This document shows positions 2,747 to 55,954 of a stretch of 64,000 bases of DNA, in pieces (the stretch's first letter is position 1; every line of letters starts with the position of its first letter). Under the pieces are notes generated by a model that saw only the letters and a list, made by a program, of their open reading frames with translations, was not told the DNA's origin and ran no database searches. Source of the DNA: an uncultured Lentisphaerota bacterium (GTDB taxonomy: Bacteria; Verrucomicrobiota; Kiritimatiellia; CAIQIC01); the NCBI GenBank assembly GCA_903889245.1, contig CAISWQ010000065.1, forward strand, positions 62,001-126,000, given 5' to 3'. A program made the position numbers and the translations under genes.

Positions 2747-2752
2747 TTCAGG

Positions 2753-2892
2753 TTCCAAGCATTGGAAACCGGCGGGGTGATTCTTCCAAGGATTGGAAAA
2801 ATCCGGCTTCCGCTTTTCCAGGCCTGGGAAAAGTACGCGACAAAATTTCCAAGCCTTGGGAAAAATCAGCCCCCGTTTTCCAAGGCTTGGAA
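2753..2892. repeat. Phased palindrome array, 5 units
   Basis: Five copies of the TTCCAAGSCTTGGAA palindrome start at 2753, 2784, 2816, 2847 and 2878, giving intervals of 31, 32, 31 and 31 bp. The third unit is TTCCAGGCCTGGGAA. Spacers of about 16 bp differ from one another. A degenerate extra copy (TGTCCAAGCTTTGGA) lies at 2669-2683. The array fills the gap between two convergent genes. Confidence 0.9.
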
Positions 2893-2925
2893 CATCCTGC
2901 TTGAAGGACTGTTGGTCGCTGGCCT

Positions 2926-11809: not shown

Positions 11810-11838
11810 GACCGCGGTGCGGCAGACGGCGGCCGGTT

Positions 11839-11884
11839 TTCCAAGCCTTGGAAACGGCCGCCGTACTTTTTCCAAGCCTTGGAA
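11839..11884. repeat. Phased palindrome array, 2 units
   Basis: Units start at 11839 and 11870 (31 bp apart), both with the core TTCCAAGCCTTGGAA. The first is embedded in a longer inverted repeat (ACGGCGGCCGG ... CGGCCGCCGT). It lies between tsf and the HAD gene, ending 16 bp before the latter's start codon. Confidence 0.9.
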
Positions 11885-11900
11885 AACTTCAGGTGCAGAC

Positions 11901-12647: not shown

Positions 12648-15269
12648 CTAAAACGGCTCTTCGCCGGCGGGTTCGCTGGCGATATCCGCCGGCGGTGCGG
12701 GGACGGTTTCGGTCGCGGCCTCGCCGCGCTTCGCCTTGGGCGGCGGGATAAGCTCCTTGGCCTCCGGCGGCAACTGGTCGGCGTACTTCTTGATCATCTT
12801 CTTCAGCGCCGCCTGCTGGCGCGGCGAGAGCTGCTTGCGCTGGCCGAACTGGCGCGCGAGCGAGTGGAAAAATTCCTTGTCGTCCCACGTGCGTCGCCCG
12901 CGCTGGACCGGCTCGCGCCATTCCTTGACCTGGCGGAACCAGCCGATCAGCTTCTCCGCCTCGGCAATCTCGGCAGGCGACGCCGTCATCACCTGCGCCC
13001 CCACACCCAGTTCTTGCGCGACGGCCGCGAAGTTTGGAATCTGCTCGTGATATTTGTTCAGGAAGCGGTCCAGCACGGCGATCTGTTTCTCCGAGAGCCC
13101 GCGCCCGTCGCTGGCCTGCTTGCTCAAGGATTCATAGAAAACCTTGTCATCGAACACGCGCTTGCCGAACTTGCGCGGCTCGCCGAACTGCACGCCCTTG
13201 AGCAGCTCCAGTTTCTTCAACGTCGCCGGGCTCGCCGGCTCGGCCGGGCGTGCCATCGCCGCGCGCGCGGCGAGGATGCCGAGTTCCTCCGCGCCCGCCT
13301 TCAAAGCGGGGACTTGTTCCAGATAGTCGTGCGCCATGCGCTGGAGCGCGGACCACTGGCGGTCGGAGACGGGCTTGTTCTCAACCATCTGGTCGCGGAT
13401 CGAGGTGTAGAGTTCCTCATCGCTATAGGTGCGCTTGCCCACCTGGCGCGGGGCGGCCCACGTCTGCACCTGGCCGAGCAGCTCGATCACGCGCTTCACC
13501 TTCTCCGGCTCGACGCCGTGCGTCTTGGCCGCGGCCAGCCACTCGACGAGCTGCTTGTAGAACTCGTCCATCATGCCGTGCCACTCGACCTTGCCTGCCT
13601 CGATCTCGTCGAGCTTCTCCTCCATGCCGGCGGTGAACTTCACATCGAACAGCGCGTCGAGGTGCTTCACAAGGAAGTCGTTCGTCTGCCGCCCCATCGG
13701 CGTCGGCGCGAGCGCGCGCTTTTCCTTCGTGACGTAATGGCGGTTGAGCAGCGTGGCGATGATGCTGGCGTAGGTGCTCGGCCGGCCGACGCCGTTTTCC
13801 TCGAGCGCCTTGACCAGCGACGCCTCGGAATAACGCGACGGCGGCTGCGTGAATTTTTGCTGCGTCAGCCATTCGAGCAGGTCGAGCAGCTCGCCTTGCG
13901 CGAGCGGCGGCAGGCGGTCCACCTCGGCGCCATCCTCCTCGCTCTCGATGCTTTTCTTCGCGCGCTCCTCGCTGATGCCGGTCGCCTTCATGTAGCCGGG
14001 GAAGGTCACCTCGGAGGCGGTCGCGCGGAACAAATAGGTACTCGTCTGGCCGGCGTGTGGCGGCGCCTCGATCTCCACCGTGCGCTGCGCGATCTTCGCC
14101 GCGGCCATCTGGCTGGCGACGAAGCGCGCCCAGATCAGGCGATAGAGCTTGGCCTCGTCGGGTGGGAGTACGGCGGCGACCGCGTCCGGCGTGCGATGCA
14201 CGTTCGTCGGCCGGATACACTCGTGCGCCTCCTGCGCGCTCGCGCGGCTCTTGAAGACCGGCGGCCGGTCGGGCAGGAAAGCGACGCCGAACGTCTGCGC
14301 GATCAGCTCGCGGCAAGCCTCCTGCGCCTCGCGCGCGACGGCGAACGAATCCGTACGCATGTAGGTGATCAAACCCACGTGCTCGCCGTTGGGCAAATCC
14401 ACGCCCTCATAAAGTTTCTGCGCGATCTTCATCGTGATCGCCGGCGAGAGCCCGTACACACTCGAACCCGCCTGTTGCAGGCTGCTGGTGATGAACGGCG
14501 GCGGCGCGCGCTTGGCGATCTCGCGGTTGACGATCTGCGCGACGCGCAGCTTGCGCCCCTCGAGCTCGGCCTGGATCGCCTGCGCCTGCGCGCTGCTCTT
14601 GATCTCCGCCTTCGCGTCGTTGATCTTGGCCAGCCGGATCTCGAACGGGTCGAGCGGCTCGGCCTGCTTGCGGACCCTGGCGCCCAGCAGCCAGAACTCC
14701 TCCGGCTTGAAATTCTCGATGGCGGCCTCGCGCTCGCACACGAGCCGCAGCGCCACCGACTGCACGCGCCCGGCGCTCGTCGCGCCGCGGATGCGCCGCC
14801 ACAACAGCGGGCTGACCTTGTAGCCCACCAGCCGGTCCAACACGCGCCGCGCCTGCTGCGAGTCCACGCGGTTCTCGTCAATTTTGCTCGGATGCTCCAG
14901 CGCCTTGCGGATCGCGCGCTCGGTGATCTCGTTGTAGGTGACGCGCAGGAAATTTTCCGCCGGCACCGCCTTCTTCAGCAGCGCCATCAGGTGCCACGCA
15001 ATCGCCTCGCCCTCACGGTCGGGATCGGGCGCGAGATAGATGCGCTCCACGCCCTTGGCCGCCGCCTGCAGCTCGGCGATCACCTTGGCGCGCGTCTTGA
15101 TCGGGACGTACTTGGGTTGGAACTTTTTCTCGACATCAATGCCGAGTTCCTTTTCTGGCAGGTCGCGGACGTGGCCCATCGAGGCCTTGACCAGGAAATC
15201 CTTGCCCAGGAACCGGTTGATGGTCTTCGCCTTCGCCGGCGATTCCACGATGACGAGATTTTTGCTCAT
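12648..15269 (-). CDS. topA: DNA topoisomerase I with an atypical triplicated C-terminal domain
   Basis: Type IA topoisomerase that relaxes negative supercoils. The 873-residue protein opens with the TOPRIM domain (LVIVESPAKAKTI; APDPDREGEAIAWH). It has the SAGRVQSVALR motif and the active-site Tyr in ITYMRTDS (about residue 303), and PSRYSEASLVKALEENGVGRPSTY near 505. The usual C-terminal zinc ribbons are absent: no Cys pairs occur after the core. Instead residues of about 596-830 hold three related segments of about 75-85 residues, each with a basic/aromatic element (GKRTYSDEELY, GKRVFDDKVFY, GRRTWDDKEFF) and a Y-x-x-Q-[IVL]-P end. The start at 15269 is the Met of MSKNLVIVES; an upstream extension would translate the palindrome array. 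Likely co-transcribed with dprA. Confidence 0.96.
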   Translation of the reverse strand: MSKNLVIVESPAKAKTINRFLGKDFLVKASMGHVRDLPEKELGIDVEKKFQPKYVPIKTRAKVIAELQAAAKGVERIYLAPDPDREGEAIAWHLMALLKKAVPAENFLRVTYNEITERAIRKALEHPSKIDENRVDSQQARRVLDRLVGYKVSPLLWRRIRGATSAGRVQSVALRLVCEREAAIENFKPEEFWLLGARVRKQAEPLDPFEIRLAKINDAKAEIKSSAQAQAIQAELEGRKLRVAQIVNREIAKRAPPPFITSSLQQAGSSVYGLSPAITMKIAQKLYEGVDLPNGEHVGLITYMRTDSFAVAREAQEACRELIAQTFGVAFLPDRPPVFKSRASAQEAHECIRPTNVHRTPDAVAAVLPPDEAKLYRLIWARFVASQMAAAKIAQRTVEIEAPPHAGQTSTYLFRATASEVTFPGYMKATGISEERAKKSIESEEDGAEVDRLPPLAQGELLDLLEWLTQQKFTQPPSRYSEASLVKALEENGVGRPSTYASIIATLLNRHYVTKEKRALAPTPMGRQTNDFLVKHLDALFDVKFTAGMEEKLDEIEAGKVEWHGMMDEFYKQLVEWLAAAKTHGVEPEKVKRVIELLGQVQTWAAPRQVGKRTYSDEELYTSIRDQMVENKPVSDRQWSALQRMAHDYLEQVPALKAGAEELGILAARAAMARPAEPASPATLKKLELLKGVQFGEPRKFGKRVFDDKVFYESLSKQASDGRGLSEKQIAVLDRFLNKYHEQIPNFAAVAQELGVGAQVMTASPAEIAEAEKLIGWFRQVKEWREPVQRGRRTWDDKEFFHSLARQFGQRKQLSPRQQAALKKMIKKYADQLPPEAKELIPPPKAKRGEAATETVPAPPADIASEPAGEEPF

Positions 15270-15293
15270 GACGCTCTTTTCATGTCGCCGGAT

Positions 15294-15402
15294 TTCCAAG
15301 CCTTGGAAACCCCGGCACCCATTCTTTCCAAGCCTTGGAAAATTTAACAAACACTTTTCCAAGCCCCGGAAGATTCCGTCCCTACTTTTCCAGCCCTGAA
15401 AA
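15294..15402. repeat. Phased palindrome array, 4 units
   Basis: Units start at 15294, 15326, 15357 and 15388 (32, 31 and 31 bp). Cores are TTCCAAGCCTTGGAA twice, TTCCAAGCCCCGGAA, and a decayed TTCCAGCCCTGAAAA. It fills the dprA-topA gap within a presumed operon, ending three bases before the dprA stop codon. Confidence 0.9.
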
Positions 15403-15405
15403 AGC

Positions 15406-16539
15406 CTACTTGCGCGGCGCCGCCAGTTCGCGCACCCCATCGGCCAGCGCCACCAAACGGCCGGGCAGCATACGTATCACCCGCTTCATTTCAAGTCCCA
15501 ACAACATCGCGGCCAGTTTCTGCATCGGCAGATTCGTGCGCCGCGCGAGGCTGTCCACGTCGAGTGGCTCCTCGAACAGCGCCTGCACCACCGCCTGCTC
15601 GTCGGGCGAGAGCTGGACGCGCGGTAGGCTGTCGAGCTCGGCCGCCTTGCGCAGCGGGTCGGCCGGCAGCAGCATCTCGAACTCCTGCAAAATGTCGTCA
15701 ATATCCTCGACCAGTCGCGCGCCGCCGCGGATCAGTTTGTGCGGGCCGTGCGCGCCGGGCTGATCAATCCGGCCGGGCACGGCGAAGACCGAGCGGCCTT
15801 GGTCGAGCGCGGCGTCGGCGGTCATCATCGCGCCGCTCTTCACGTCGGCCTCGACGATCACCGCGCCCATGCTCATGCCGCTGATGATGCGGTTGCGATA
15901 GGGGAACGTCGTGCGGTCCGCCTCGCGGCCGAGCGTGTACTCGCTGATGACCGCGCCCTGCCTGGCGATCTTGCGCGCGAGGTCGGCATTCTCCGGCGGA
16001 TAGAGCGTGTCGAGCGCGTTGCCGAGCACGGCGATGGTGCGGCCGCCGCCCTTGAGCGCGCCCTGGTGCGCCGCGGAGTCAATCCCGCGCGCCAACCCGC
16101 TGACGACGACCAGCCCGCACTTGGCGAGCTGGTAGCCGAGGCGGTCGGCGACGCTCAAGCCGTAGTGCGAAGCCTGCCGCGTGCCGACGATGGCGACCGC
16201 CTGCTTGTCCTTTTTCTCCAGCGTGCCCTGGACGTAGAGCGCAAGCGGCGGATCATGGATCTGCTTGAGCAGTACGGGATAGTCGTTGTCCACGAACGTG
16301 ACGAGGCGCGCGTCGAGCTTGGCGGCTTTGGCTTCCTCGGCGGCGGGATCCACCTGTTCACGTTGCGCAATGATGCTCTGCGCCAGCTCCGGCCCGATGC
16401 CCTTGACGCGCACGAGGTCGGAGAGCGAGGCCGTGAACACGCCCGCCGGTTCGCCCAGCGCCTCGACCAGCGCCCGGACCTTCACCGGCCCGATGCCGTC
16501 AATCATGTTCAGAGCAATGTATGCCTCACGCGAAGTCAC
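15406..16539 (-). CDS. dprA: DNA-processing protein DprA
   Basis: DprA binds incoming single-stranded DNA and loads RecA during natural transformation. The N-terminus has helix-hairpin-helix-like elements (GIGPVKVRALVEALG, VKGIGPELAQSI). The Rossmann core follows with VAIVGTRQASHYG, VSGLARGIDSAAHQGAL, the nucleotide-binding TFPYRNRIISGMS, and SGAMMTADAALDQGR. A winged-helix-like C-terminal part ends at residue 377. The start chosen is GTG 16539 because GGAGG lies five bases upstream. A TTG at 16551 would place that site inside the gene. It follows the unknown gene at 16606 after 66 bp and precedes topA, a neighbourhood also seen in other phyla. Transformability itself cannot be inferred from dprA alone. 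Confidence 0.96.
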   Translation of the reverse strand: MTSREAYIALNMIDGIGPVKVRALVEALGEPAGVFTASLSDLVRVKGIGPELAQSIIAQREQVDPAAEEAKAAKLDARLVTFVDNDYPVLLKQIHDPPLALYVQGTLEKKDKQAVAIVGTRQASHYGLSVADRLGYQLAKCGLVVVSGLARGIDSAAHQGALKGGGRTIAVLGNALDTLYPPENADLARKIARQGAVISEYTLGREADRTTFPYRNRIISGMSMGAVIVEADVKSGAMMTADAALDQGRSVFAVPGRIDQPGAHGPHKLIRGGARLVEDIDDILQEFEMLLPADPLRKAAELDSLPRVQLSPDEQAVVQALFEEPLDVDSLARRTNLPMQKLAAMLLGLEMKRVIRMLPGRLVALADGVRELAAPRK

Positions 16540-17850: not shown

Positions 17851-18972
17851 TTACGCCGCTGATCCATCCAACTCTGTTCCGGCGGCCTGCAAGACCTCCT
17901 CCGGCACAACGCAGCCGCTGATGGCTTCGCCCAGCTTCTTCAGCAGCACGAAGCGCGGCACGCCGCCCTGCGCTTTTTTGTCGAGCGTCATCGCCGCCTT
18001 CAGCTCCGGCCAGGCGAGCGCCTGCGCGCGGACCGGCAGTCCGAGTTGCATGAGCAGTTGCTCGATGCGCGCGGCCTCGGCGGCGGACAGGCCGGAGAGA
18101 CGAACCGAGAGCTGCGCCGCCTTGACCATGCCGATGGCAACGGCCTCGCCGTGTAGGACCGCGCCATAGCCGGTCGCCGTCTCGATCGCGTGGCCGAGCG
18201 TATGGCCGAAGTTCAGGAGCGCGCGCAGGCCGGATTCCTCGCGCTCGTCGCCGGCGACGACCTGCGCCTTGAGCTCGCAGCAGCGCGCGATGACCTGCGC
18301 GAACAGCTCGCGCTCGTCCGCCGCGAGGTTTTTCCAAGGCTTGGAAAAAAGCGCCGCGTGCTTTTCCAAGGTTTGGAAAAACTGTGCGTCGCTGATGCAG
18401 CCATATTTGACGACCTCGGCCAGGCCGGCGCGCGTCTCGCGCGGCGGCAACGTGGCGAAGGTTTCGAGATCGGCGACGACCAGCGCAGGCTGATGAAACG
18501 CGCCGACCAGGTTTTTCCCGGACGGCAGATTGATGCCGGTCTTGCCGCCGACGGAGCTGTCCACCATCGCCAGCAGCGTCGTCGGCACCTGTACGAAGGC
18601 GATGCCGCGCAGCCACGAGGCCGCGAGGTAGCCGGCGAGGTCGCCGACCACGCCGCCGCCGAGCGCGACGACGATGCCGGCACGGTCCAGCCCCGCCTGT
18701 TTGGCTGCCTCGTAGAGCGCAAAAAGCTGTTCACCGCATTTGGAAGCTTCGCCCGCCGGCACCACCGAGTGGGCCACCTTGAAGCCGGCGGCGCGCAGGC
18801 TCGCAGCGACGGTTTCGCCGAAGAGCGGATGCACATGGCTATCGCTGACCAGCAGCGCGTTCCGGCCACGCAGCAGCGGCGCCGCCAGCGCACCGAGCTG
18901 CGGCAGCAGCCCCGCGCCGATGTGAATCGGATAGGACCGCGCGCCCAACTGCACTTTGATCACGTTCGGCAT
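17851..18972 (-). CDS. aroB: 3-dehydroquinate synthase with two in-frame palindromes
   Basis: Second step of the shikimate pathway (DAHP to 3-dehydroquinate, NAD and zinc dependent). The 373-residue protein has the NAD motif VALGGGVVGDLAGY, the phosphate-binding VPTTLLAMVDSSVGGKTG, NLVGAFHQP, GLAEVVKYG, and the zinc ligands in LNFGHTLGHAIE and LHGEAVAIG. Residues of about 199-214 (FFQTLEKHAALFSKPWKN) are encoded by two palindrome units 32 bp apart, read in two different frames. The first fits the conserved FFxxLE position. The second adds about seven residues compared with the EboD paralogue in this window. The insert lies in a surface helix region, so activity is probably kept. The promoter predicts a leaderless mRNA from the ATG at 18972. 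Confidence 0.96.
   Translation of the reverse strand: MPNVIKVQLGARSYPIHIGAGLLPQLGALAAPLLRGRNALLVSDSHVHPLFGETVAASLRAAGFKVAHSVVPAGEASKCGEQLFALYEAAKQAGLDRAGIVVALGGGVVGDLAGYLAASWLRGIAFVQVPTTLLAMVDSSVGGKTGINLPSGKNLVGAFHQPALVVADLETFATLPPRETRAGLAEVVKYGCISDAQFFQTLEKHAALFSKPWKNLAADERELFAQVIARCCELKAQVVAGDEREESGLRALLNFGHTLGHAIETATGYGAVLHGEAVAIGMVKAAQLSVRLSGLSAAEAARIEQLLMQLGLPVRAQALAWPELKAAMTLDKKAQGGVPRFVLLKKLGEAISGCVVPEEVLQAAGTELDGSAA
18332..18378. repeat. Phased palindrome pair inside aroB
   Basis: Units start at 18332 (TTCCAAGGCTTGGAA) and 18364 (TTCCAAGGTTTGGAA), 32 bp apart, inside the aroB reading frame. On the coding strand they are read as FSKPWK and FQTLEK. The palindrome has no stop codon in any of its six frames, which lets it be tolerated within genes. 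Confidence 0.92.
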
Positions 18973-20876: not shown

Positions 20877-20946
20877 GTTGATCCTCACACGCGCTTGTGC
20901 GCGCACCCAAAATGCCTGTTCCACCGCCGCGACGCAACGCCAACTT

Positions 20947-20992
20947 TTCCAAGGCTTGGAAAATTTCCCCGCTGATGTTCCAAGCCTTGGAA
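20947..20992. repeat. Phased palindrome pair in a divergent promoter region
   Basis: Units at 20947 (TTCCAAGGCTTGGAA) and 20978 (TTCCAAGCCTTGGAA), 31 bp apart, lie between divergent genes. The right half of the second unit, TTGGAA, doubles as a candidate -35 element of the SGNH gene. Confidence 0.9.
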
Positions 20993-21014
20993 AATGGCGG
21001 CGGGCGGCTATGCT
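20987..21014 (+). promoter_or_regulatory. Promoter of SGNH hydrolase using a palindrome half as -35, predicted leaderless
   Basis: TTGGAA (20987-20992, part of the palindrome) and TATGCT (21009-21014) are 16 bp apart. The ATG at 21021 begins six bases after the -10 box and no ribosome site is present. Confidence 0.55.
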
Positions 21015-23462: not shown

Positions 23463-24305
23463 ATGATTAAAAGCATTCTGGTTTGCACCGATGGCTCCGC
23501 CTATGGCGATGTCGCCAGCGAGTATGCCATCCATCTCGCCACGCGCCTGAAAGCGCAGGTCGTGGGCTTGCACGTGCTCGACTCCCGGATGCTGGAAGGG
23601 CCGATGCTCTCCGACATCTCCGGGATGCTGGGCGCGGAACCGTTCAGCGCGCAGCTCGAGCAATTCCGCGCGATCATGGAAACCAAGGGCGAGGCGGTCA
23701 TCAAGGCGCTCGGCGAGTGTGCCGGCCGCGCGGGCGCGGACCTCGAATCGCGCGTCCGCATGGGCCATCCCGCGCGCGTCATCCTCGAAGAGGAGGTGGG
23801 CGCGGAACTGGTGATCCTCGGCCAGAAGGGCGAACACGCCGAACTGATCGGCGACCTGCTCGGCTCCAACGTCGAGCGCATCGTCCGCCGTTCCTGCAAG
23901 CCCTGCCTCGTCACGCCGGCCGCCTTTGCGCCGGTGACGAAAATCCTGGCCGCGTTCGATGGCAGCGCGATTTCCAGCAAGGCGCTGCACGAGGGTATCG
24001 AGCTGGCCCAGGCGCTGGATGTGCCGCTGCTCATCCTCACCGTCCGCGCGCACGCCTCCGACCGCTACGCCGAGGACATCGCCGAGACCGGCATGAAGCT
24101 GGCGCGCGCGCACGGCTGCCCCGCCGCGCGTATCGTCGTGGATGGCCGGCCCTCGGAGGAAATCCTGGAGGTCGCGCACCAGCAGGGCTGCGACCTGATC
24201 GTCATTGGCGCCTACGGCCACAGCGCCGTTCGCGAGTGGATCATCGGCAGCACCACCGCCCACCTGATTCATCAAACCGATCTGCCGGTGATGCTGGTGC
24301 GCTGA
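23463..24305 (+). CDS. Universal stress protein, two UspA domains
   Basis: A 280-residue tandem UspA protein. Domain 1 (ILVCTDGSAYGDVASEYA, residues 3-20) ends with VILGQKGEHAELIG...GSNVERI, and domain 2 (ILAAFDGSAISSKAL) ends with VIGAYGHSAVREWIIGSTT. Both carry the G-2x-G-9x-G-S/T pattern of ATP-binding Usp domains, though the first domain has a Gln-Lys variant. Usp proteins help survival under starvation or oxidative stress. A CAGGAG site precedes ATG 23463. The stop overlaps the rmuC start (TGATG), so the two are co-transcribed. Confidence 0.93.
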   Translation: MIKSILVCTDGSAYGDVASEYAIHLATRLKAQVVGLHVLDSRMLEGPMLSDISGMLGAEPFSAQLEQFRAIMETKGEAVIKALGECAGRAGADLESRVRMGHPARVILEEEVGAELVILGQKGEHAELIGDLLGSNVERIVRRSCKPCLVTPAAFAPVTKILAAFDGSAISSKALHEGIELAQALDVPLLILTVRAHASDRYAEDIAETGMKLARAHGCPAARIVVDGRPSEEILEVAHQQGCDLIVIGAYGHSAVREWIIGSTTAHLIHQTDLPVMLVR

Positions 24306-25378
24306 TGCTCGAAACGGCCATCACCATCGCGGCCCTGCTGCTCGGCCTCGCCGGCCTCGGCTGGTTCCTCCACCGCAGTCTGCAGGCCGCGCTGACCCAG
24401 CGGCGCGACGACCAGGCGCTGACGCTCCTCCAAAACCAGGTGCAGGCCACCGTTGCGCAGGTCGGCCAGGTACGCGACAGCGTCCAGCAGATCGCCGGGC
24501 AGATGAACGCCTCGCTCGCCGAGACGCGCAAGGCGATGGATACGCGGCTCGACAATGCCGCGCGCGTCGTCGGCGATGTCTCCAAGCACCTCGGCCAGCT
24601 CGATGAGTCCGCCAAGCGCATCTTCGATGTCGGCCGCGACATCGCGGGGTTGCAGGACATCCTGCGCGCGCCCAAGCTGCGCGGTGGCCTCGGCGAATTG
24701 TTCCTGGGCGACCTGCTCGCGCAGATTCTCCCGCCGGACCACTTCGCGTTGCAGCACGGTTTCCAGGGCGGCGAGAAGGTGGATGCCGTCATCCGCCTCA
24801 AGGCCGGGCTCGTGCCGGTGGACGCCAAGTTCCCGCTCGAAAACTTCCAGCGCCTCCTCCGCGCCGCGAGCGACGACGAGCGCGCCACCGCCCGCCGCGT
24901 CTTCGTCAAGGACGTGCAGACGCACATTGACGCCATCGCCAAGAAATACATCCGGCCCGACGAGGACACCTTCGACTTCGCGCTGATGTACATCCCGGCG
25001 GAGAATGTCTACTACGAAGTCATCGTCAAGGACGACGAGTTCGGCGGCGAGTCCAAGCTCTTCAACTACGCGCTCGCGCGCCGCGTGATCCCCGTTTCGC
25101 CGAACAGCTTCTATGCCTATCTGCAAACGATTCTGCTCGGTCTCAAGGGCCTGCGCGTCGAGGAGAGCGCGCGGCAGATCATGGGCCACCTCGCACGCCT
25201 GCAGAAGGACTTCGCCGGTTTCGGCGAGAGCTTCGAACTCGTCGGCCAGCACCTGGCCAATGCGCAGAAGAAATTCGAGGAAGCCGACAAGCGCTTCGAC
25301 AAGGTCGCCGCGAAGCTCGAACAGATTTCCGGCGCCGCCGCCGAGACCACCACCGCCCTGCCCCCGCCAGCAGCCTGA
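24305..25378 (+). CDS. rmuC: DNA recombination protein RmuC
   Basis: A 357-residue protein with an N-terminal membrane helix (about residues 3-21), a long coiled coil (about 30-110) and the RmuC domain. Family motifs are GGLGELFLGDLLAQILP, VDAVIRLKAGLVPVDAKFPLENF, KDVQTHIDAIAKKYI and the Asp/Glu cluster in FALMYIPAENVYYE. The domain is a predicted restriction-endonuclease-like fold that limits DNA inversions and rearrangements. In a genome packed with inverted repeats this is a noteworthy neighbour. The start ATG shares a base with the usp stop codon. Confidence 0.93.
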   Translation: MLETAITIAALLLGLAGLGWFLHRSLQAALTQRRDDQALTLLQNQVQATVAQVGQVRDSVQQIAGQMNASLAETRKAMDTRLDNAARVVGDVSKHLGQLDESAKRIFDVGRDIAGLQDILRAPKLRGGLGELFLGDLLAQILPPDHFALQHGFQGGEKVDAVIRLKAGLVPVDAKFPLENFQRLLRAASDDERATARRVFVKDVQTHIDAIAKKYIRPDEDTFDFALMYIPAENVYYEVIVKDDEFGGESKLFNYALARRVIPVSPNSFYAYLQTILLGLKGLRVEESARQIMGHLARLQKDFAGFGESFELVGQHLANAQKKFEEADKRFDKVAAKLEQISGAAAETTTALPPPAA

Positions 25379-25382
25379 CGTT

Positions 25383-25431
25383 TTCCAAGGGGGTCTGGAA
25401 AACTTCCGCGCCGGATTTCCAAGGTTTGGGA
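25383..25431. repeat. Phased palindrome pair before parA
   Basis: Units start at 25383 and 25417. The interval is 34 bp because the first core carries three extra bases (TTCCAAGGGGGTCTGGAA); without them it would be 31. The second is TTCCAAGGTTTGGGAA. They lie between rmuC and the parA promoter. Confidence 0.85.
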
Positions 25432-25441
25432 AAGTTGCCGC

Positions 25442-25494: not shown

Positions 25495-26412
25495 ATGGCG
25501 CACAACCGGGTCATTTCGATCGCCAATCAGAAGGGCGGCGTGGGTAAGACCACGACGTCGGTCAACCTTGCCGCCTGCCTCGCCGAGCGACGGCAGCAGG
25601 TGCTGCTGATTGATCTGGACCCGCAGGCCAACGCGACCAGCGGCATCGGCGTTGGGCAGCGGGAGGGCGGCAGCATCTACCGCGCGCTGCTCGGTGACAC
25701 CCATGTAAAGGAATTGGTGGTGCCCACCGCGATCGAGCACCTTGACCTGATCCCCTCGGAGGTGGACCTCGCCGGCGCAGAGATTGATGTGGCCCGCGCC
25801 GACCGTTACCTGCACCGTTTCGCCGAGGCGCTCGCACCGTTGCGCGCAGCGGCGCACTATGACTTCATCCTCGTGGACTGCCCGCCCTCGCTGGGCATCC
25901 TGACCATGAACGCGCTCTGCGGCTCGGACTCGATCCTGATCCCAATCCAGAGCGAGTACTACGCGCTCGAGGGCCTGACCGTGATCGAGCGCGTCATCAG
26001 CCAACTGCGCGCGAGCGGCGCCAACCCGCGACTGGAGATCGAAGGTATCGTGATGACGATGTATGACGGCCGCACGAACCTCGCGCAACAAGTGGTCGCC
26101 GAAGTCGTGAAGCATTTTGGCGAGAAGGTGTTCGAGACCTTGATCCCCCGCAGCGTACGTTTGAGCGAAGCCCCGAGCTACGGCCAGCCGATCATCGTCT
26201 ATGACAAGCATTGCACCGGTACTGCCGCCTATCGCCAGCTCGCGCGCGAGTTTCTCAAGCGACGCAAGGCGGAAGACACCCCGCCGATCGTGACCGCGGA
26301 CGTCACGGAAGCCGCGCCACAACCGGCGGTTGAGCCGCAACCTGACGCAACAGCCGAAGCACAGACAGCGCCGGTGGCTGCGGCAGCGAGCCTCCCGCCG
26401 GCCCCCGCCTGA
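25495..26412 (+). CDS. parA: ParA/Soj-family ATPase
   Basis: A 305-residue deviant-Walker ATPase. The motif SIANQKGGVGKTTTSVNLA has the signature Lys of ParA/MinD proteins. FILVDCPPSLGILTMNAL is Walker B, and the chromosomal Soj motifs SEYYALEGL and IPRSVRLSEAPSYGQPI are present. It lacks the N-terminal helix-turn-helix of plasmid ParA, so it is of the chromosomal Soj type. No parB lies beside it: the next gene is the convergent eboE. The C-terminal 40 residues are a Pro/Ala/Gln-rich tail not found in typical Soj. The start at 25495 is consistent with the promoter. Confidence 0.94.
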   Translation: MAHNRVISIANQKGGVGKTTTSVNLAACLAERRQQVLLIDLDPQANATSGIGVGQREGGSIYRALLGDTHVKELVVPTAIEHLDLIPSEVDLAGAEIDVARADRYLHRFAEALAPLRAAAHYDFILVDCPPSLGILTMNALCGSDSILIPIQSEYYALEGLTVIERVISQLRASGANPRLEIEGIVMTMYDGRTNLAQQVVAEVVKHFGEKVFETLIPRSVRLSEAPSYGQPIIVYDKHCTGTAAYRQLAREFLKRRKAEDTPPIVTADVTEAAPQPAVEPQPDATAEAQTAPVAAAASLPPAPA

Positions 26413-27617: not shown

Positions 27618-27690
27618 ATCCACAGATTACACGGATTTCACGGATTTTTTCGCATGTTCCCCATCGGTGAAAGCTGTGCAATCTGTGGAT
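27618..27690. repeat. ATCCACAGATTACAC-type inverted repeat at the 3' end of eboD
   Basis: ATCCACAGATTACAC (27618-27632) and its near-complement GTGCAATCTGTGGAT (27676-27690) flank ACGGATTTCACGGATTTTT. Similar ATCCACAGATTACACGGATT elements recur in many environmental genomes. Here the element supplies the last 20 or so codons and the stop codon of eboD. Confidence 0.7.
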
Positions 27691-28847
27691 GAATTTATCT
27701 GTTTCAATTCATTTGCGCAGGCGGCCATCACGCGTTGATCCACCGCATGGATTTCTTTTTTGCGGCCAACGCCCTGCGGCAGCGTAAGGGCGAGTTCGCC
27801 TCCGAGATGTTCGCGGAAGTCTGCCAAGCCTTGGAAAAGCGCCAGATGGCCGGCGCGGTCGCGCCGCGCGAGTTCGGGATACCAGACCGGCAGGCCGGCC
27901 TGCATCAGGCCGCGCACCAGCGCGCGGAAAGCTTTGGCCGCCAGTTGGCCGAGCCGTACGGCGTAGGCGGCGTCGAGCGCAATGCCGGCGGCGACCGCCT
28001 GGCCGTGGCCAATACGGTAGCGCGACAGTACCTCCAGCCGATGCGCCGACCAGTGGCCGAAATCCAGCGGGCGCGCGCGACCCATCTCGAAGGGGTCGCC
28101 ACCGCGCGCGATGTGGTCGAGGTGCAGTTCGGCGCAGCGCGTAATCAGCCGCGCCATCGCCTGCGGCTCGCGTTGCCGCAGCGCCGGCGCGTTCCGGCAG
28201 AGCCAGCGGAAAAACTTCGCGTCCTTGATCAGCGCGACCTTGAACGCCTCCGCGACGCCGCCGCGCCAGTCGCGGTCGGACAGGGTCCCGAGCAACGCAA
28301 AATCGTTGACGACCGCGAAGGGCGGGGCAAAGGTGCCGACCAGGTTCTTCGCCGCGCCGAAATTCACGGCGGTCTTGACGCCAACGCCGGAATCGCACTG
28401 GGCCAGCACCGTGGTCGGCAGCCGCACCACGCGCAAGCCGCGATGCACCAGCGAGGCCGCGAACCCGACCACGTCCAACACCGCGCCACCACCAATAATG
28501 ACGACGTAGGCATGGCGATCGAGATGATGGGCAAGCAAAACGCGCACGATCCGCTGCGCCGACTGGAAGGAGTGCTTTGCGGCTTCGCCGCCGCGCACAA
28601 GCTGCGGCGGCGCGACGAGCGCGAGGCGGTGGCGATAGTGGCGGAAATATTGCTCCACCCGGCCGGGCAACTCCGGGCGGGCGTGCGCCAGCCCGGAATC
28701 CACAAACACCAGTGCACGCCGACGGTCGGGTTCCTTCAACCGGTCCAGCGCCCAGCCGAGCGCGAGGTTGTGCGTGTCGAACGCGTCATGGGTGAACACC
28801 ACCGGGAAATCGAAGGCCACAGCCAGTTTCTGCTCCACGAGCTTCAT
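27627..28847 (-). CDS. eboD: EboD-like sugar phosphate cyclase / 3-dehydroquinate synthase homologue
   Basis: A 406-residue AroB-fold cyclase distinct from the real aroB of this window. The NAD motif is IIGGGAVLDVVGF, the phosphate loop is LPTTVLAQCDSGVGVKTAVNFG, then NLVGTFAPP, GGVAEAFKVALIKD, and zinc ligands in LDFGHWSAHRLE and IGHGQAVAAG. The Ser-Ser-Val-Gly-Gly-Lys of AroB is changed to Asp-Ser-Gly-Val-Gly-Val-Lys, a hallmark of EboD proteins. They are thought to make a cyclic product from a sugar phosphate, but substrate and product are unproven. The start at 28847 overlaps the eboF stop by 4 bp. The C-terminal 20 residues come from a dispersed repeat, so the native end is probably lost or extended. 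Confidence 0.88.
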   Translation of the reverse strand: MKLVEQKLAVAFDFPVVFTHDAFDTHNLALGWALDRLKEPDRRRALVFVDSGLAHARPELPGRVEQYFRHYRHRLALVAPPQLVRGGEAAKHSFQSAQRIVRVLLAHHLDRHAYVVIIGGGAVLDVVGFAASLVHRGLRVVRLPTTVLAQCDSGVGVKTAVNFGAAKNLVGTFAPPFAVVNDFALLGTLSDRDWRGGVAEAFKVALIKDAKFFRWLCRNAPALRQREPQAMARLITRCAELHLDHIARGGDPFEMGRARPLDFGHWSAHRLEVLSRYRIGHGQAVAAGIALDAAYAVRLGQLAAKAFRALVRGLMQAGLPVWYPELARRDRAGHLALFQGLADFREHLGGELALTLPQGVGRKKEIHAVDQRVMAACANELKQINSSTDCTAFTDGEHAKKSVKSV

Positions 28848-30106
28848 AGGTGCGCCAGATGTTGCTTCAACTGTCGCGCCAAGTCGAGCAAGGAGGTCGC
28901 CTGCTCCAGCGGCAGCGAGGCGGCGAGCGCGACCTCGCGGCCGGGTCCGGCGAGGCCGTGCGTGCCGCGGATGCGCGCCGCGTCCTGGCTGACCGAGCCG
29001 GGCGGCCAGCCCCAGAGCAACTCGCACGGGTCGTAGCCGGGTTTGTTGTGGATGTCCACGTGCCCGGCGAAATCCGGCGCCTCGCGTTTCTCACTCCACC
29101 ACGGATAGGCGAACCAGCGGCCCGGCTGCGCGGCCACCAGAATATCGCCGCCGCGCTCGTGGAGGGCGCCGACGCCATCCAGTTTTTCCAACACGTGACG
29201 CACCTCGGCGCGGCGCGACGCCTCGAGCACGCTCACCAGCGCGACCTGATGATCGCACATGGCGAACGCGGGGCTGGCAAAGAAATCCGGATAGGCGCGG
29301 CCGGCGATGATGCGCGGCTGGAAGAGCCCGGCCGCGCGCAGGGCGCGGTTGGGGAACACGGGCGCGCCGGTGACGCGTTCGATCGCGTAGTCGCCACAGA
29401 TGAGGATGTGGTAGCCGGTGGCGGCGGCGGTTTTCCAAAGCTTGGAAAGCCAGGCATAGGTTTTTTCCAAGGCTTGGAAAACCTTGTCGTGACCGGGACC
29501 GTGGCGCTGCAGGTCGTAGTCGAGATGCGGCAGGTACGTGAGCAGCAGGTCGGGCACAAGGCCCGGCGCGGACATCACGGCGCAGGTCGCCTCTACAATC
29601 CAGTCGGTGGCGCGGTGCGAGGCGAACGGGCCCCAGTAGTGCAGCAGGTTGAACGGCCGGCCGAGCTCGGCGCAGAGGCGCGCGTAGAGGTCGTGCGGCT
29701 GCGAGTAGCAATCCTGGAGCATCCCGCCGTGGTGCTTGTGCACCGGCTTGGGCGAGAGGATGAAATCGGCCTGTTCGCCGAGGCTCTGCTGCCAGAACAG
29801 CAGGCCGACTTTTTTCCCGCGCGCGCGGAAATTATTCCAGATACGCTCGCCGGGGACGAGGTGGGCGGACTGCTCCCAGAAGGAAACCTTGCGGAGCTGG
29901 CGCAGGAAGAGGCCGTTGGCTTCCAGGCCGCCTTCGGCCGGTGTCAGCGAGGTGCGCAGTGCCGCCTGCACGGGACAGGTGAGGGCGGGGAAAACCGTTT
30001 CCAGTTTTTGGAACGTGAGCGGCGCGGGCGGCGGCCGCTGCTGCACGAGCGACCAGCCGAGCGCGGCGACATCCACCAGCAGGATTTTGTTTTTCGCCAC
30101 GCTCAT
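28844..30106 (-). CDS. eboF: EboF-like alkaline phosphatase/phosphodiesterase-superfamily protein with in-frame palindromes
   Basis: A 420-residue type I phosphodiesterase/nucleotide pyrophosphatase-fold protein. KILLVDVAALG gives the first metal Asp. TVFPALTCPVQAALRTSL holds the nucleophile Thr. YLPHLDYDLQRHGP, ICGDYAIERV and the late His in VDIHNKPGYDP supply the other metal ligands. This is the expected partner in ebo clusters. Residues of about 210-225 (FQALEKTYAWLSKLWK) are encoded by two palindrome units 32 bp apart, in the helix that normally precedes the ICGDYAI strand. Length is not visibly increased, so the palindromes may have replaced native sequence. It is 3 bp after eboC and overlaps eboD. 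Confidence 0.86.
   Translation of the reverse strand: MSVAKNKILLVDVAALGWSLVQQRPPPAPLTFQKLETVFPALTCPVQAALRTSLTPAEGGLEANGLFLRQLRKVSFWEQSAHLVPGERIWNNFRARGKKVGLLFWQQSLGEQADFILSPKPVHKHHGGMLQDCYSQPHDLYARLCAELGRPFNLLHYWGPFASHRATDWIVEATCAVMSAPGLVPDLLLTYLPHLDYDLQRHGPGHDKVFQALEKTYAWLSKLWKTAAATGYHILICGDYAIERVTGAPVFPNRALRAAGLFQPRIIAGRAYPDFFASPAFAMCDHQVALVSVLEASRRAEVRHVLEKLDGVGALHERGGDILVAAQPGRWFAYPWWSEKREAPDFAGHVDIHNKPGYDPCELLWGWPPGSVSQDAARIRGTHGLAGPGREVALAASLPLEQATSLLDLARQLKQHLAHL
29433..29479. repeat. Phased palindrome pair inside eboF
   Basis: Units at 29433 (TTCCAAAGCTTGGAA) and 29465 (TTCCAAGGCTTGGAA), 32 bp apart, in the reading frame of eboF. A weaker TTCCAGTTTTTGGAA at 29999 in the same gene may be chance. 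Confidence 0.9.
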
Positions 30107-34860: not shown

Positions 34861-34937
34861 TCCGGGCTTTGGAAAAAGCCGGCCTCCTTTTTCCAAGGCC
34901 CGGAACATTTCCGGCGCGATTTTCCAAGCCCCGGAAA
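34861..34937. repeat. Phased palindrome array, 3 units
   Basis: Units at 34861 (TTCCGGGCTTTGGAA), 34892 (TTCCAAGGCCCGGAA) and 34923 (TTCCAAGCCCCGGAA), spaced 31 and 31 bp. The last one, its left flank and the following kinase end are part of a 79 bp block identical to 40412-40490. Confidence 0.88.
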
Positions 34938-34938
34938 C

Positions 34939-37900
34939 TCACGCGTGCGCTGCCGGGCGGGCATCGAGGATGGCGCGGATGGCCTGCAAGAGCGCGGCGG
35001 AGGGGTAGGGTTTTTGCAGGAAGTGATAACGTTGCTGTTCGATGATGGTCCAACGGGCGCGTTCATCGGTGTAACCGCTACAGAGCAAGACCGGCAAGTT
35101 GGGCTGCTGGGCTTGTAACTGTTCGGCAATGGTGATACCGCTCTGATCCGGCAGGACCACATCACTGAAGAGCAGATCAAACCCGCCGTTTTCCTGCTGG
35201 AACAAGGTGAGGGCCTCCACGGCCCGGCCCGCCACCCGCACTTCATAACCGGCCGCTTTCAGGATACGCAAAGCCAGGTTGCGGACTTCAGGTTCGTCCT
35301 CGACCAGCAGGATGCGCTCCCCGTGGCCGCGCGGCGGCAACTCCGGCGTCATGGCGGGAGCGGCCGGCGCGGAGACTTCAGCGGGACAGGCCGGCAGATA
35401 TAGCCTGAACGTGGAGCCGTGGCCTTCCTGGCTGTAGACATTGATCCAGCCTTGATGCTGCTGGGCAATGCCGTAGATGACGGAGAGCCCGAGGCCGGTT
35501 CCTTTTCCCAGCCCCTTGGTGCTGAAAAAGGGCTCGAAGATGCGCTCCATGACTTCCTTGCTCATCCCCACACCCGTATCGGAAACCGCCAGGCAAACAT
35601 AGCGCCCCGGCCTTGCATCCAACACCACGCTCGCGTCCTGTTCATCAAATTCCACCACGTCGGTATGGATGGATAAGCGGCCGCCGTGCGGCATGGCGTC
35701 GCGTGCATTGACCGCGAGATTGATGAGCACCTGCTGGATCTGGCTCGTATCGGCCTGGACCAGTGGCAGCTTGGGCGCGAGGTTGGTTTGAATCCGGATG
35801 TCCTCGCCAATCAGGCGCTGGATCATTTTCTGGGTATCCCCCACCACATCGTTGAGTTGCATGGGCCGCAGGCTGATCATCTGCTTGCGGCTGAAGGCGA
35901 GCAGTTGACGGGTTAAGTCAGCGGCGTGGGTGGCGGCCTTCTGGATTTCCAGCAGGTCGGCGTGTTTCGCATCCACCTTGGGGATCCCGGCCAGCAGCTC
36001 CTCGGTATAGCCAAGAATGGCCTGCAGACTGTTGTTGAAGTCGTGGGCCACACCACCGGCGAGCCGGCCCACCGATTCCATCTTCTGGGCATGCTGGATT
36101 TGTTCCTCCAACTGCCGTTCACGGGTGACATCCAGTTTGATGGCCACGTAATTGGTGATCACGCCGGCCGCATTGCGGATCGGGGAGATGGTCGCCTCCT
36201 CCTCATAGATGGTCCCGTCTTTACGCTTGTTGCTGAAGTTGCCATGCCACGTTTCGCCACGCAGCAACGTCGCCCAGAGTTGCTGATAGAACGCCGCCGC
36301 CTGCTTGCCGCTCTTGAGAATGCGCGGATTCTGGCCGATGGCCTCCTGCCGGGCATAACCGGTGGACGTCTCAAAGGCCGGATTGACGTAGAGTATCGTA
36401 CCTTGAGGATCGGTTATGACCATCGTCTCGGCGGCCTGATCCACCGCCATGGCCAGCCGTTGTTTTTCCGCCTCCGCCCGTTTGCGTTCTGAAATATCAC
36501 GGGCAAAGCCGCAGCTATATTCCCGCCCGCCAAAACATATCAGGGCCGTGGTGATCTCCACCGGGAATTCACTGCCATCCTTGCGCCGATGCACAGATTC
36601 GGAGGTGTAATGATGGGTGGCCCGCAGTTTTTCCCAAACCGACCTTAACCGCTCCGGGGAGGCATGGGGCGCATAGGCCGCCATGGGCAAACCGAACAGC
36701 TCTTCACGTGCATAGCCAAGGGCCTGGCAACCGGCGTCATTGACGTAAATAAGCTTGTTAGCGCTATCGAACCAATACACACCGTCCTTGGTGGTATCAA
36801 TGGAATGCTTGAAGAGCGCCAGTTGCTCCTCCACTCGTTTCCGGTCGGTAATATCCAGCGAAACGCCACCGAGCAGAACGGCGCCACCTTCAATGCGGAC
36901 CGGGAACTTAACCGTTTCGAAGATATGCGCGATACCGCGACTATCCTGCAGGCCTTCTTCAACCTTGATGGGACCCTGCGTCAACGCCCGGCGATCATCC
37001 TCCGCCATCTGTTGCCCTGTTTCGCCCGGCAGCAGTTCAGGCGTGGTCAAGCCCTGCCACTGCTTCCAGCCCAGCAGATCTGCCAAGTACTGGTTGACAA
37101 ACAGAGTACGCCCGGCCGCATCCTTGATGAAGGCGGCGCCGGGCAGATTGGCCATAAAGGCCTTGAACTGTTCCTGACTCTCCCGCAACGCCGCTTCCGC
37201 CCGCCTGCGCTCGGTGACATCTATCATCAAATTCAACATGCAACGCTCGCCGTTGAGCTCAAAGGTGTCCGCGGAATAGAGCACATCCCGCGGTTTTCCC
37301 CCGCGGGCATAAATAGTCAAATTAAGCCCGCGAAACGCCTGCTTGGATTTCAAGGTCTCGACAATTTTCTGACGTTCTTCCGGGGTGATAACGCCCAGTT
37401 CCAGTGATGTGTGGCCAACCAGTTCAGTCCGCGTGTAATCATACAAACGACAGGCGGCTTCATTCACATCAATAAACCGGCCGTCTTCCATCCGGCTGAT
37501 GACTGTGGCCACAGGGCTGGCACGAAAAGCCTTGGAGAAACGCTCTTCGGACTGCCGCAACGCCGCCTCTGTTAATTCACGCTCGGTAATATCCTTGACC
37601 GTCGCACAACAGGCCACGGCACAGCCTGCATGGTCACGGATCAATGCTGGCGAGACGATGACAGGGAAACGCTCCCCATTCTTGCGCTGGAAGGTTAGCT
37701 CCAATTCGCAGGACTCACCGTGCAACGCACGCTCCAACGCAGCCTGTATGGTGGCAATGGCATCAGAGGCCCAATAGGGATGCGGAGCACCGACCCCCAG
37801 GAGTTCTGCGCGACTGAAACCGGTCATCTGGCAAAAGGCGTCATTAACCTCCACATGCACACCGTTCATATCCACCACCGAGAGGCCGTCTTTCAGGGCC

Positions 37901-40257: not shown

Positions 40258-40391
40258 GGTTCGCCCTCTGTCCTGCTCTTTCACCAAAGCAAGATTAGAA
40301 CCAATTCCTGCCGACGAAAAGGAATTTCTGCCCCACCCTGGCCCACGGATCAACCTGCTCTACGTACGAGCCCCCAGTCGCAGGAACTGTT

Positions 40392-40437
40392 TCCCAAGGC
40401 TTGGAAAATTCCCGGCGCGATTTTCCAAGCCCCGGAA
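40392..40437. repeat. Phased palindrome pair between the two kinase genes
   Basis: Units at 40392 (TCCCAAGGCTTGGAA) and 40423 (TTCCAAGCCCCGGAA), 31 bp apart. The second unit, with its left flank, is identical to the one after the other kinase gene at 34923. Confidence 0.88.
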
Positions 40438-40439
40438 AC

Positions 40440-44517: not shown

Positions 44518-44593
44518 TTCCAAGGCTTGGGGGAGACGTGCAGATTTTCCAACCCTTGGGAAAACCGGGCCGATCCTCTTCCAATCCTTGGAA
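44518..44593. repeat. Phased palindrome array, 3 units, downstream of gyrA
   Basis: Units at 44518 (TTCCAAGGCTTGGGG), 44547 (TTCCAACCCTTGGGA) and 44579 (TTCCAATCCTTGGAA); intervals 29 and 32 bp. The order of variants and the second spacer resemble the array upstream of gyrB. It ends three bases before the gyrA stop codon. Confidence 0.88.
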
Positions 44594-44595
44594 AG

Positions 44596-47088
<2,493 letters not shown>

Positions 47089-49688: not shown

Positions 49689-49709
49689 TCAAGGCGTAAC
49701 GCGTTATAT

Positions 49710-49788
49710 TTCCAAGGCTTGGAAAAGCGTCCGCAAGTATTTTCCAAGCCTTGGGAAAACCGTGCCGCCGGGCTTCCAATCCTTGGAA
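49710..49788. repeat. Phased palindrome array, 3 units, between gyrB and gluQ
   Basis: Units at 49710 (TTCCAAGGCTTGGAA), 49742 (TTCCAAGCCTTGGGA) and 49774 (TTCCAATCCTTGGAA), spaced 32 and 32 bp. The array lies between divergent promoters, 40 bp upstream of the gyrB -35. Confidence 0.92.
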
Positions 49789-49869
49789 AAGCGCTCCTCT
49801 TCCAGCGCCATATATTGTGGCCCGACCGAGCCTCCACCACAAGCCGGGTGCGCCGCTTTTTTGCGGACT

Positions 49870-53169: not shown

Positions 53170-53198
53170 CGTTCACCTCGTGTTGAGCGCGGTGAGTT

Positions 53199-53244
53199 TT
53201 CCAAGGTTTGGAAAAAATACCAGCGTTTTTTCCAAGGCTTGGAA
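53199..53244. repeat. Phased palindrome pair before the URO-D-like gene
   Basis: Units at 53199 (TTCCAAGGTTTGGAA) and 53230 (TTCCAAGGCTTGGAA), 31 bp apart, fill the gap between two co-directional genes and end two bases before the stop codon of the upstream gene. Confidence 0.9.
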
Positions 53245-53246
53245 GA

Positions 53247-55791: not shown

Positions 55792-55815
55792 CCCTGCCCA
55801 AGACCAGCACGTCTT

Positions 55816-55924
55816 TTCCAAGCCTTGGAAAATTTCCACCTGTTTTTTCCAAGGCCCGGAAAACCGCCGCCTTGTTCTTTCCAATCCTTGGAAAAATCAC
55901 CGTTTATTTTTCCAATCCCTGGAA
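55816..55924. repeat. Phased palindrome array, 4 units
   Basis: Units at 55816 (TTCCAAGCCTTGGAA), 55847 (TTCCAAGGCCCGGAA), 55879 (TTCCAATCCTTGGAA) and 55910 (TTCCAATCCCTGGAA); intervals 31, 32 and 31 bp. It lies in the 285 bp gap between the SDR and uxuA genes. A TGTTCGG-type heptad repeat follows at 55955-55977. Confidence 0.92.
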
Positions 55925-55954
55925 CCCGGCTCGCCCTCCAGCAGTCTTCTTCCT

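Follow-up and report, generated by a model that had tools for sequence, protein, structure and literature searches.

In operators of the Lrp/AsnC, NtrC and NrdR type, dimer sites lie about three helical turns apart, which implies cooperative binding on the same face of the DNA, at a limited set of promoters. DNA uptake sequences have an orientation and are not known to be phased. The palindromic repeats called Rickettsia palindromic elements (RPEs) occur as in-frame parts of unrelated metabolic genes (PMC10969869). REPs occur in more than 100 copies per genome, are palindromic, clustered and regularly spaced, and have been suggested to be protein-binding sites; REPs of the RAYT type mostly start with GTAG or GTGG (PMC2817692). 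The high-affinity sites of H-NS are dispersed, and their spatial arrangement directs nucleoprotein assembly (PMC5418058), while uptake sequences of the Pasteurellaceae and Neisseriae number hundreds to thousands of copies and also occur in coding sequence (PMC2346458).

Here we analyze palindromes in a window of 64,000 nt (the whole stretch of DNA under study) from a Kiritimatiellia genome, G000. The window includes aroB (17851..18972, minus strand), which encodes a 3-dehydroquinate synthase of 373 aa, as judged from its translation, its Pfam domains (DHQ_synthase and DHQS_C, PF01761 and PF24621), PDB homologues and an AlphaFold model. This gene hosts two exact copies of TTTTCCA-N5-TGGAAAA, 32 bp apart from start to start, both in the aroB frame and both without mismatch to TTTTCCAANNNTTGGAAAA. 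Site 1, the 5' copy within the gene (18362..18380, TTTTCCAAGGTTTGGAAAA), is read as FQTLEK at residues 199–204 and lies atop a native FFxxLE. Site 2, the 3' copy (18330..18348, TTTTCCAAGGCTTGGAAAA), is read as FSKPWK at residues 209–214, in a family-specific 7-residue loop extension. The 13-bp spacer between them (18349..18361) encodes HAAL and sets the two starts three helical turns apart. The proposal of the initial annotation that palindromes are read as protein inside the essential aroB is thus borne out. In-frame sites inside protein genes (aroB, trpF, Sir2, queA, PNP, namZ and others) are a likeness to RPEs; however, RPEs are inserts of about 100–150 bp with a conserved peptide ORF, whereas here 19 bp are conserved and yield three peptides depending on frame, and the Kiritimatiellia sites are helix-phased, use all three frames and in several cases appear to have arisen without insertion.

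The window holds 34 sites at ≤3 mismatches, compared with 0.04 expected from 100 dinucleotide shuffles. Five of them, spaced 31–32 bp apart, form an array in a convergent intergenic gap (2751..2894), and two more lie 31 bp apart at 11837..11886. A three-site array (32 and 31 bp; 15292..15373) lies between genes 12648-15269 and 15406-16506, and the orthologous gap of the relative G001 also holds an array. Other intergenic arrays comprise two sites (31 bp; 20945..20994), three sites (32 and 32 bp; 49708..49790) and four sites (31, 32 and 31 bp; 55814..55926). Between genes 24305-25378 and 25495-26412 there is a single site (25415..25433), at the place where G001 has a two-site array. Besides aroB, sites lie within the gene for an EboD-like DHQ-synthase paralogue (27627-28847; one site at 27820..27838, read as FQGLAD) and a phosphodiesterase gene (28844-30106; two sites 32 bp apart at 29431..29481, read as FQALEK and SKLWK). 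Four two-site arrays abut minus-strand stop codons exactly: 34889..34938 (gene 34939-40284), 40390..40439 (gene 40440-43100), 44545..44595 (gene 44596-47088) and 53197..53246 (spacing 31 bp; gene 53247-54506).

Across the whole of G000 (5.26 Mb in 125 contigs; 64.5% GC in the sampled part), we counted 531 exact TTTTCCAANNNTTGGAAAA sites and 718 copies of the wider core TTTTCCA-N5-TGGAAAA, and a reversed control motif had 0 copies in this genome. Genome-wide figures for G000 other than these counts are based on 462 kb of sampled sequence, and in-gene site counts depend on gene calls from a simple home-made hexamer caller. The consensus of 249 sites is TTTTCCAAGSCTTGGAAAA, and it has no conserved head. 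Each arm of the symmetrical motif has seven fixed bases, and the 5-bp center varies from genus to genus; this combination of fixed arms and variable center fits what is expected of a dimer site. An earlier claim that the unit has no stop in any of its six frames holds for GCC, GGC, ACC and GGT centers, which are the ones common in this genome, but fails for the TGA and TCA centers common in related genera, in which one frame reads TTC CAA TGA.

In a phylum-wide search of relatives, whose genomes vary in completeness, the core was present in 14 of 14 genomes of the order, G000 included (14 to 718 exact copies), and in several other families of the class. Essentially no core sites were present in further families of the class or in the remainder of the phylum as sampled. 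Among named records, the nearest are MAGs assigned to the Pontiellaceae or Kiritimatiellota. The window's genus has 65–531 exact sites across four genomes. Its sister genus g2, in the same family, has 1 exact site in each of G004 and G005, nearly all sites having been lost there or never been present; with about one site in each of these two genomes the distribution is patchy, and the sites are therefore not essential in the class. Most genera of family f4, in which the center differs (TTTTCCAC/T-N3-A/GTGGAAAA), were initially overlooked. The search for an alternative motif in motif-poor genomes returned, in G011, center variants of the known one (TTTTCCAT-N3-ATGGAAAA); these variants prompted us to widen the core definition. 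Samples of G004 and G037 yielded nothing of the kind. The genome of G016 contains only 14 core sites, compared with 151–234 in three relatives of its genus; those examined lie on very short contigs (C5, C67 and C74), possibly reflecting contamination or loss. Viral spread was rejected, as a two-site array was present on a single IMG/VR contig only. That contig, IMGVR_UViG_3300035698_006241, carries three sites, spaced at 31 bp, within a small-protein gene (L235:3188-3580) whose product resembles an HTH regulator by eye only. A search of the available literature with the exact motif letters returned no paper, and a Pontiella description paper does not mention palindromes or intergenic repeats.

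To follow the aroB sites across relatives, we compared 59 AroB sequences. Most of these read FFxxLE or LFxxLE at the position of site 1, so that the alignment supports the earlier suggestion that this site coincides with a natural FFxxLE. It is palindromic (0–3 mismatches) in members of families f1 (G000, G001 and G002), f3 (G007), f19 and f31, with exact copies also in G001, G007 and G102; motif-free genomes mostly have FA or FE there, at 4–10 mismatches. On the AroB tree, the site-1 label requires 7 state changes, of which supported branches force 5. Judging from these sequences, site 1 appears to have arisen through substitutions over the native FFxxLE codons, without change of length.

The second aroB site takes at least three arrangements. 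In arrangement A it lies at 32 bp in frame 0, is read as FSKPWK and goes with a loop that is 7 residues longer (G000 and G001); this arrangement shows a later loss in G001, where both palindromes are exact and the 8 codons directly after them are gone, and is degenerate in G002 and G003. In arrangement B (G102 and G153) the loop is short and the site, at 31 bp in frame 2, is read as FPNLGK/FPTIGK; in arrangement C (G075 and G177) the loop is long and the site, at 42 bp in frame 1, is read as FFQALENK/FFQCSEK. Since G102 and G075 group as sisters in the AroB tree, turnover of the arrangement is fast. A further site, 429 bp upstream of site 1 and near residue 55, is seen repeatedly in f19 and f31, and close to the 3' end of the G212 aroB there is a third array, which is degenerate. 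For nearly all aroB sites the mismatch count is the minimum that the protein sequence permits. Given protein and codon usage, the chance of a site is mostly 7e-4 to 0.09, values that are illustrative since the sites were noticed as palindromes; the lowest belong to the frame-2 FPNLGK/FPTIGK sites (7e-4 and 4e-3) and, in G002 and G003, to the second site (FSRPWKD; 1e-3 for FSRPWK in G002). Single aroB sites are only modestly unlikely given their protein.

The 7-residue excess that the initial annotation noted in this stretch of AroB is real. It is mostly absent from AroBs outside the family, corresponds to a 7-residue gap in the structures 3zok, 5eks and 6lk2, and is found in family-f1 AroBs including those of G004 and G005, with a remnant in G001. 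The further idea that palindrome 2 is an inserted unit accounting for the extra residues is not supported: G004 and G005 carry the extension, with a PWK/PWG core, on non-palindromic DNA (CTGGCGCGGCCTTGGAAG or CTGGCCCAACCCTGGGGC). On sequence grounds, the extension may either predate the palindrome or descend from a decayed palindrome carrier. In the AlphaFold model (pLDDT 92.5) the stretch lies between helices 195–203 and 217–244, and the part that carries site 2 varies in length, so the extension region is likely a permissive loop.

The trpF gene, encoding phosphoribosylanthranilate isomerase, repeats this pattern. Arrays of two to three sites occupy the same TrpF loop in f1, f2 and f3, with peptides that differ by frame order: FPSLGK/FQALEK/SKLWK in G000 (frames 2-1-0, 32 bp), FQTLEK-type/FPDIGK-type/FSKHWK in G006 and G010 (frames 1-2-0, 31 bp) and FSNDWK/FQSLEK/FPIIGK in G007 (frames 0-1-2, 31 bp). 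Families f19 and f31 have related one- or two-site versions (SNDWK/FQGLE), and the trpF genes of motif-free genomes have none of these peptides. With one loop used in at least five families (loci L264-L290), TrpF is an independent parallel to AroB. Sites have thus been re-created repeatedly in both genes, and because the second site recurs at differing distance, frame, peptide and loop length in aroB, and likewise in trpF, selection appears to act on the DNA.

Other genes of G000 with internal sites encode the DHQ-synthase paralogue, the phosphodiesterase, NamZ, QueA, a purine nucleoside phosphorylase (PNP), a sulfatase and a Sir2-family deacylase. Compared with solved structures, QueA and PNP are unchanged in length at the site. 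The deacylase (L129:14617-15423, contig C102) has four sites in frames 0, 2, 0 and 1 at spacings of 32, 31 and 31 bp, placed right after the first zinc CxxC, and exceeds T. maritima Sir2 by about 24 residues. Substitution and loop growth have therefore both been used. Together with aroB and trpF, these cases agree with the earlier claim that the unit is tolerated in essential and core genes, every frame being used. The site pair of the exo-muramidase gene namZ lies in L118:14057-15166. In G038, despite only 2 exact core sites genome-wide, a near-site (L260:12645) lies just upstream of a NamZ-like gene, which makes this gene a recurrent neighbor.

The 462 kb of G000 contain 100 arrays and 263 sites, with neighbors 31 or 32 bp apart and a few at 62–64 and 94–96 bp. 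Spacers measure 12 to 13 bp; all 95 spacers of 31-bp pairs are distinct, and spacer identity is 0.35 within an array versus 0.32 between arrays. We therefore rejected tandem duplication, since the spacers all differ and are no more alike within than between arrays, the palindrome being all that the copies have in common. As expected of a helix-phased protein-binding array, distances are multiples of the helical repeat: 127 distances in G000 give a best period of 10.55 bp (R = 0.95), and 22 distances in G102, a one-contig relative from another family, give 10.45 bp (R = 0.92). The G102 distances (22, 30–32, 42–43, 52, 63, 83, 116 and 156 bp) are phased with a Rayleigh p of ∼7e-9, or 9e-6 when the 30–33 class is removed, and pairs wholly within genes show the same phasing. 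Other relatives have sites at 31/32 bp (G001, G006 and G007) or at 22 and 30/31 bp (G009). In G000, 85 of 98 arrays are intergenic and use divergent, convergent and tandem gaps about proportionally, without orientation preference, a pattern that fits neither promoters nor terminators alone; in G102, 68 of 106 sites lie inside genes. Within the 462 kb, 12 of 84 flanking 3' ends and 3 of 86 flanking 5' ends lie ≤5 bp from an array.

Same-face binding by interacting proteins is expected to produce helical phasing of this kind; an RNA element or a repeat that inserts at random is not. We infer, with a probability of roughly 70%, that the palindromes are chromosome-wide sites for a dimeric, sequence-specific and cooperative DNA-binding protein with an architectural or global regulatory role in part of the Kiritimatiellia, and that they are overprinted on aroB. 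The predicted dimer would occupy neighboring palindromes cooperatively along one face of the helix and act across the chromosome. In aroB, substitutions in the native FFxxLE codons would have created site 1, and site 2 would have been accommodated in a length-tolerant loop at a distance in phase with the helix. More generally, coding sequence would be colonized wherever the encoded protein tolerates the sites, and the reading frame would matter little because the common centers give no stop in any frame. A bolder form of this proposal, which we advance tentatively and regard as less likely than not, is a class-specific chromosomal scaffold code, in which the putative protein assembles along phased palindromes that span the whole chromosome, are re-created in any frame and reshape loops of essential enzymes (AroB, TrpF and Sir2).

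The alternative that survives best, although we consider it unlikely, is a mobile or selfish palindromic repeat, similar to REP/BIME or Rickettsia elements, whose insertions into genes are tolerated for lack of stop codons. Such a repeat would be consistent with the high copy number, the intergenic preference, the presence in core genes in all frames and the extra residues at some sites (about 24 in Sir2, those in the TrpF of G004 and the seven of AroB). Yet conservation is limited to the 19-bp palindrome, with unrelated spacers and flanks; QueA, PNP and aroB site 1 show no change of length, and the length changes that do occur are lineage-specific (+7, +10 or shorter). Helical spacings of 42, 52, 63, 83 and 116 bp would also be left unexplained. 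REP/BIME elements share the copy number, palindromy, clustering and regular spacing, but the Kiritimatiellia motif lacks the GTAG/GTGG head, is a near-perfect palindrome with AT ends, has unrelated spacers and is substantially present in genes. Nor does a RAYT/Y1 transposase track the motif: PF01797 matches are two and weak in G000 (718 sites) and 21 in G044 (0 sites). Of the earlier notion that the unit spreads into genes, then, the presence in core genes stands, while unrelated spacers and helical spacing point away from mobile spread and toward protein-binding sites.

Less probable is a motif resembling DNA uptake sequences and maintained by biased transformation. Hundreds of copies within and between genes, tolerated in coding sequence, would suit such a motif, as reported for uptake sequences (PMC2346458), but the palindrome is symmetrical and its arrays are helix-phased, in contrast to DUS/USS. 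We regard as similarly improbable an element acting at the RNA level, in which paired palindromes form an mRNA hairpin that serves in termination, pausing or stability. Pairing between the two aroB palindromes is energetically possible (−29.7 kcal/mol, z = −3.06), and arrays are enriched right after stop codons; pairing, however, requires neither helical spacing out to 116 bp nor the frequent single sites, and arrays occupy divergent, convergent and tandem gaps about proportionally. An intrinsic terminator was likewise rejected, given that no T-run was seen downstream of the aroB sites, the arrays have no orientation preference and many sites lie in genes. Ordinary protein conservation, with FQTLEK and FSKPWK as conserved residues and the palindromes as a by-product, is hardly credible and on sequence comparison is largely refuted already by the frame changes: FQTLE and the PWK/PWG core in G004 and G005, and FQTLE in G037, are encoded by non-palindromic DNA, an outcome that the initial annotation had equated with such conservation, but that equation fails because in other families the phased palindrome persists in aroB and trpF although the reading frame, the peptide and the length of the loop differ, and because the AroBs of motif-free genomes mostly have FA or FE at this position.

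Sites for a cooperative dimeric protein therefore remain our preferred reading, and among described systems the repeat-family membership tests that we ran place the motif among neither RPEs nor REP/BIMEs; by analogy, it would work most like a helix-phased operator array at the scale of the chromosome. The likeness is to Lrp/AsnC (FFRP) arrays, with symmetrical sites at about three turns (31/32 bp in most genomes), but about 100 arrays in 462 kb, many within genes, set it apart from helix-phased operators. Dispersed sites are also a likeness to those of nucleoid proteins (H-NS, Fis, MatP at matS, and Noc), although we know of no protein or motif in this class of factors that matches the Kiritimatiellia palindrome, and matS and Noc sites are far fewer than the palindromes of G000.

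Examination of Lrp/AsnC and RAYT proteins yielded no candidate for the binding protein. Nearly every genome of the class encodes one protein of the Lrp/AsnC type, about 160 aa long, whose ligand domain is well conserved and whose recognition helix is strongly variable (L234, contig C71 of G000 and others). Lrp/AsnC was rejected as the binder, as the one conserved orthologue is present in motif-bearing and motif-free genomes alike and its recognition helix varies among the motif-bearing ones. We also considered whether a relic array in g2 might be the binder's own operator, but the only array of G004 lies inside trpF (L203:2858-3574) and the single site of G005 lies elsewhere, with no recognizable regulator adjacent. 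The comparison of g2 with the window's genus offers a natural contrast for locating the binding protein through gene content.

These observations point to an undescribed, abundant and sequence-specific chromosomal protein across much of a bacterial class. They would represent a natural case in which DNA-level selection of the binding-site kind shares coding sequence, with the loop of an essential enzyme recoded in differing frames across lineages while the phasing is kept. The spacing and frame variants of the aroB and trpF loops provide ready quantitative tests. The insert peptides FQxLEK, FSKxWK and FPxxGK in Kiritimatiellia proteins would accordingly represent DNA sites that are read through, rather than protein motifs.
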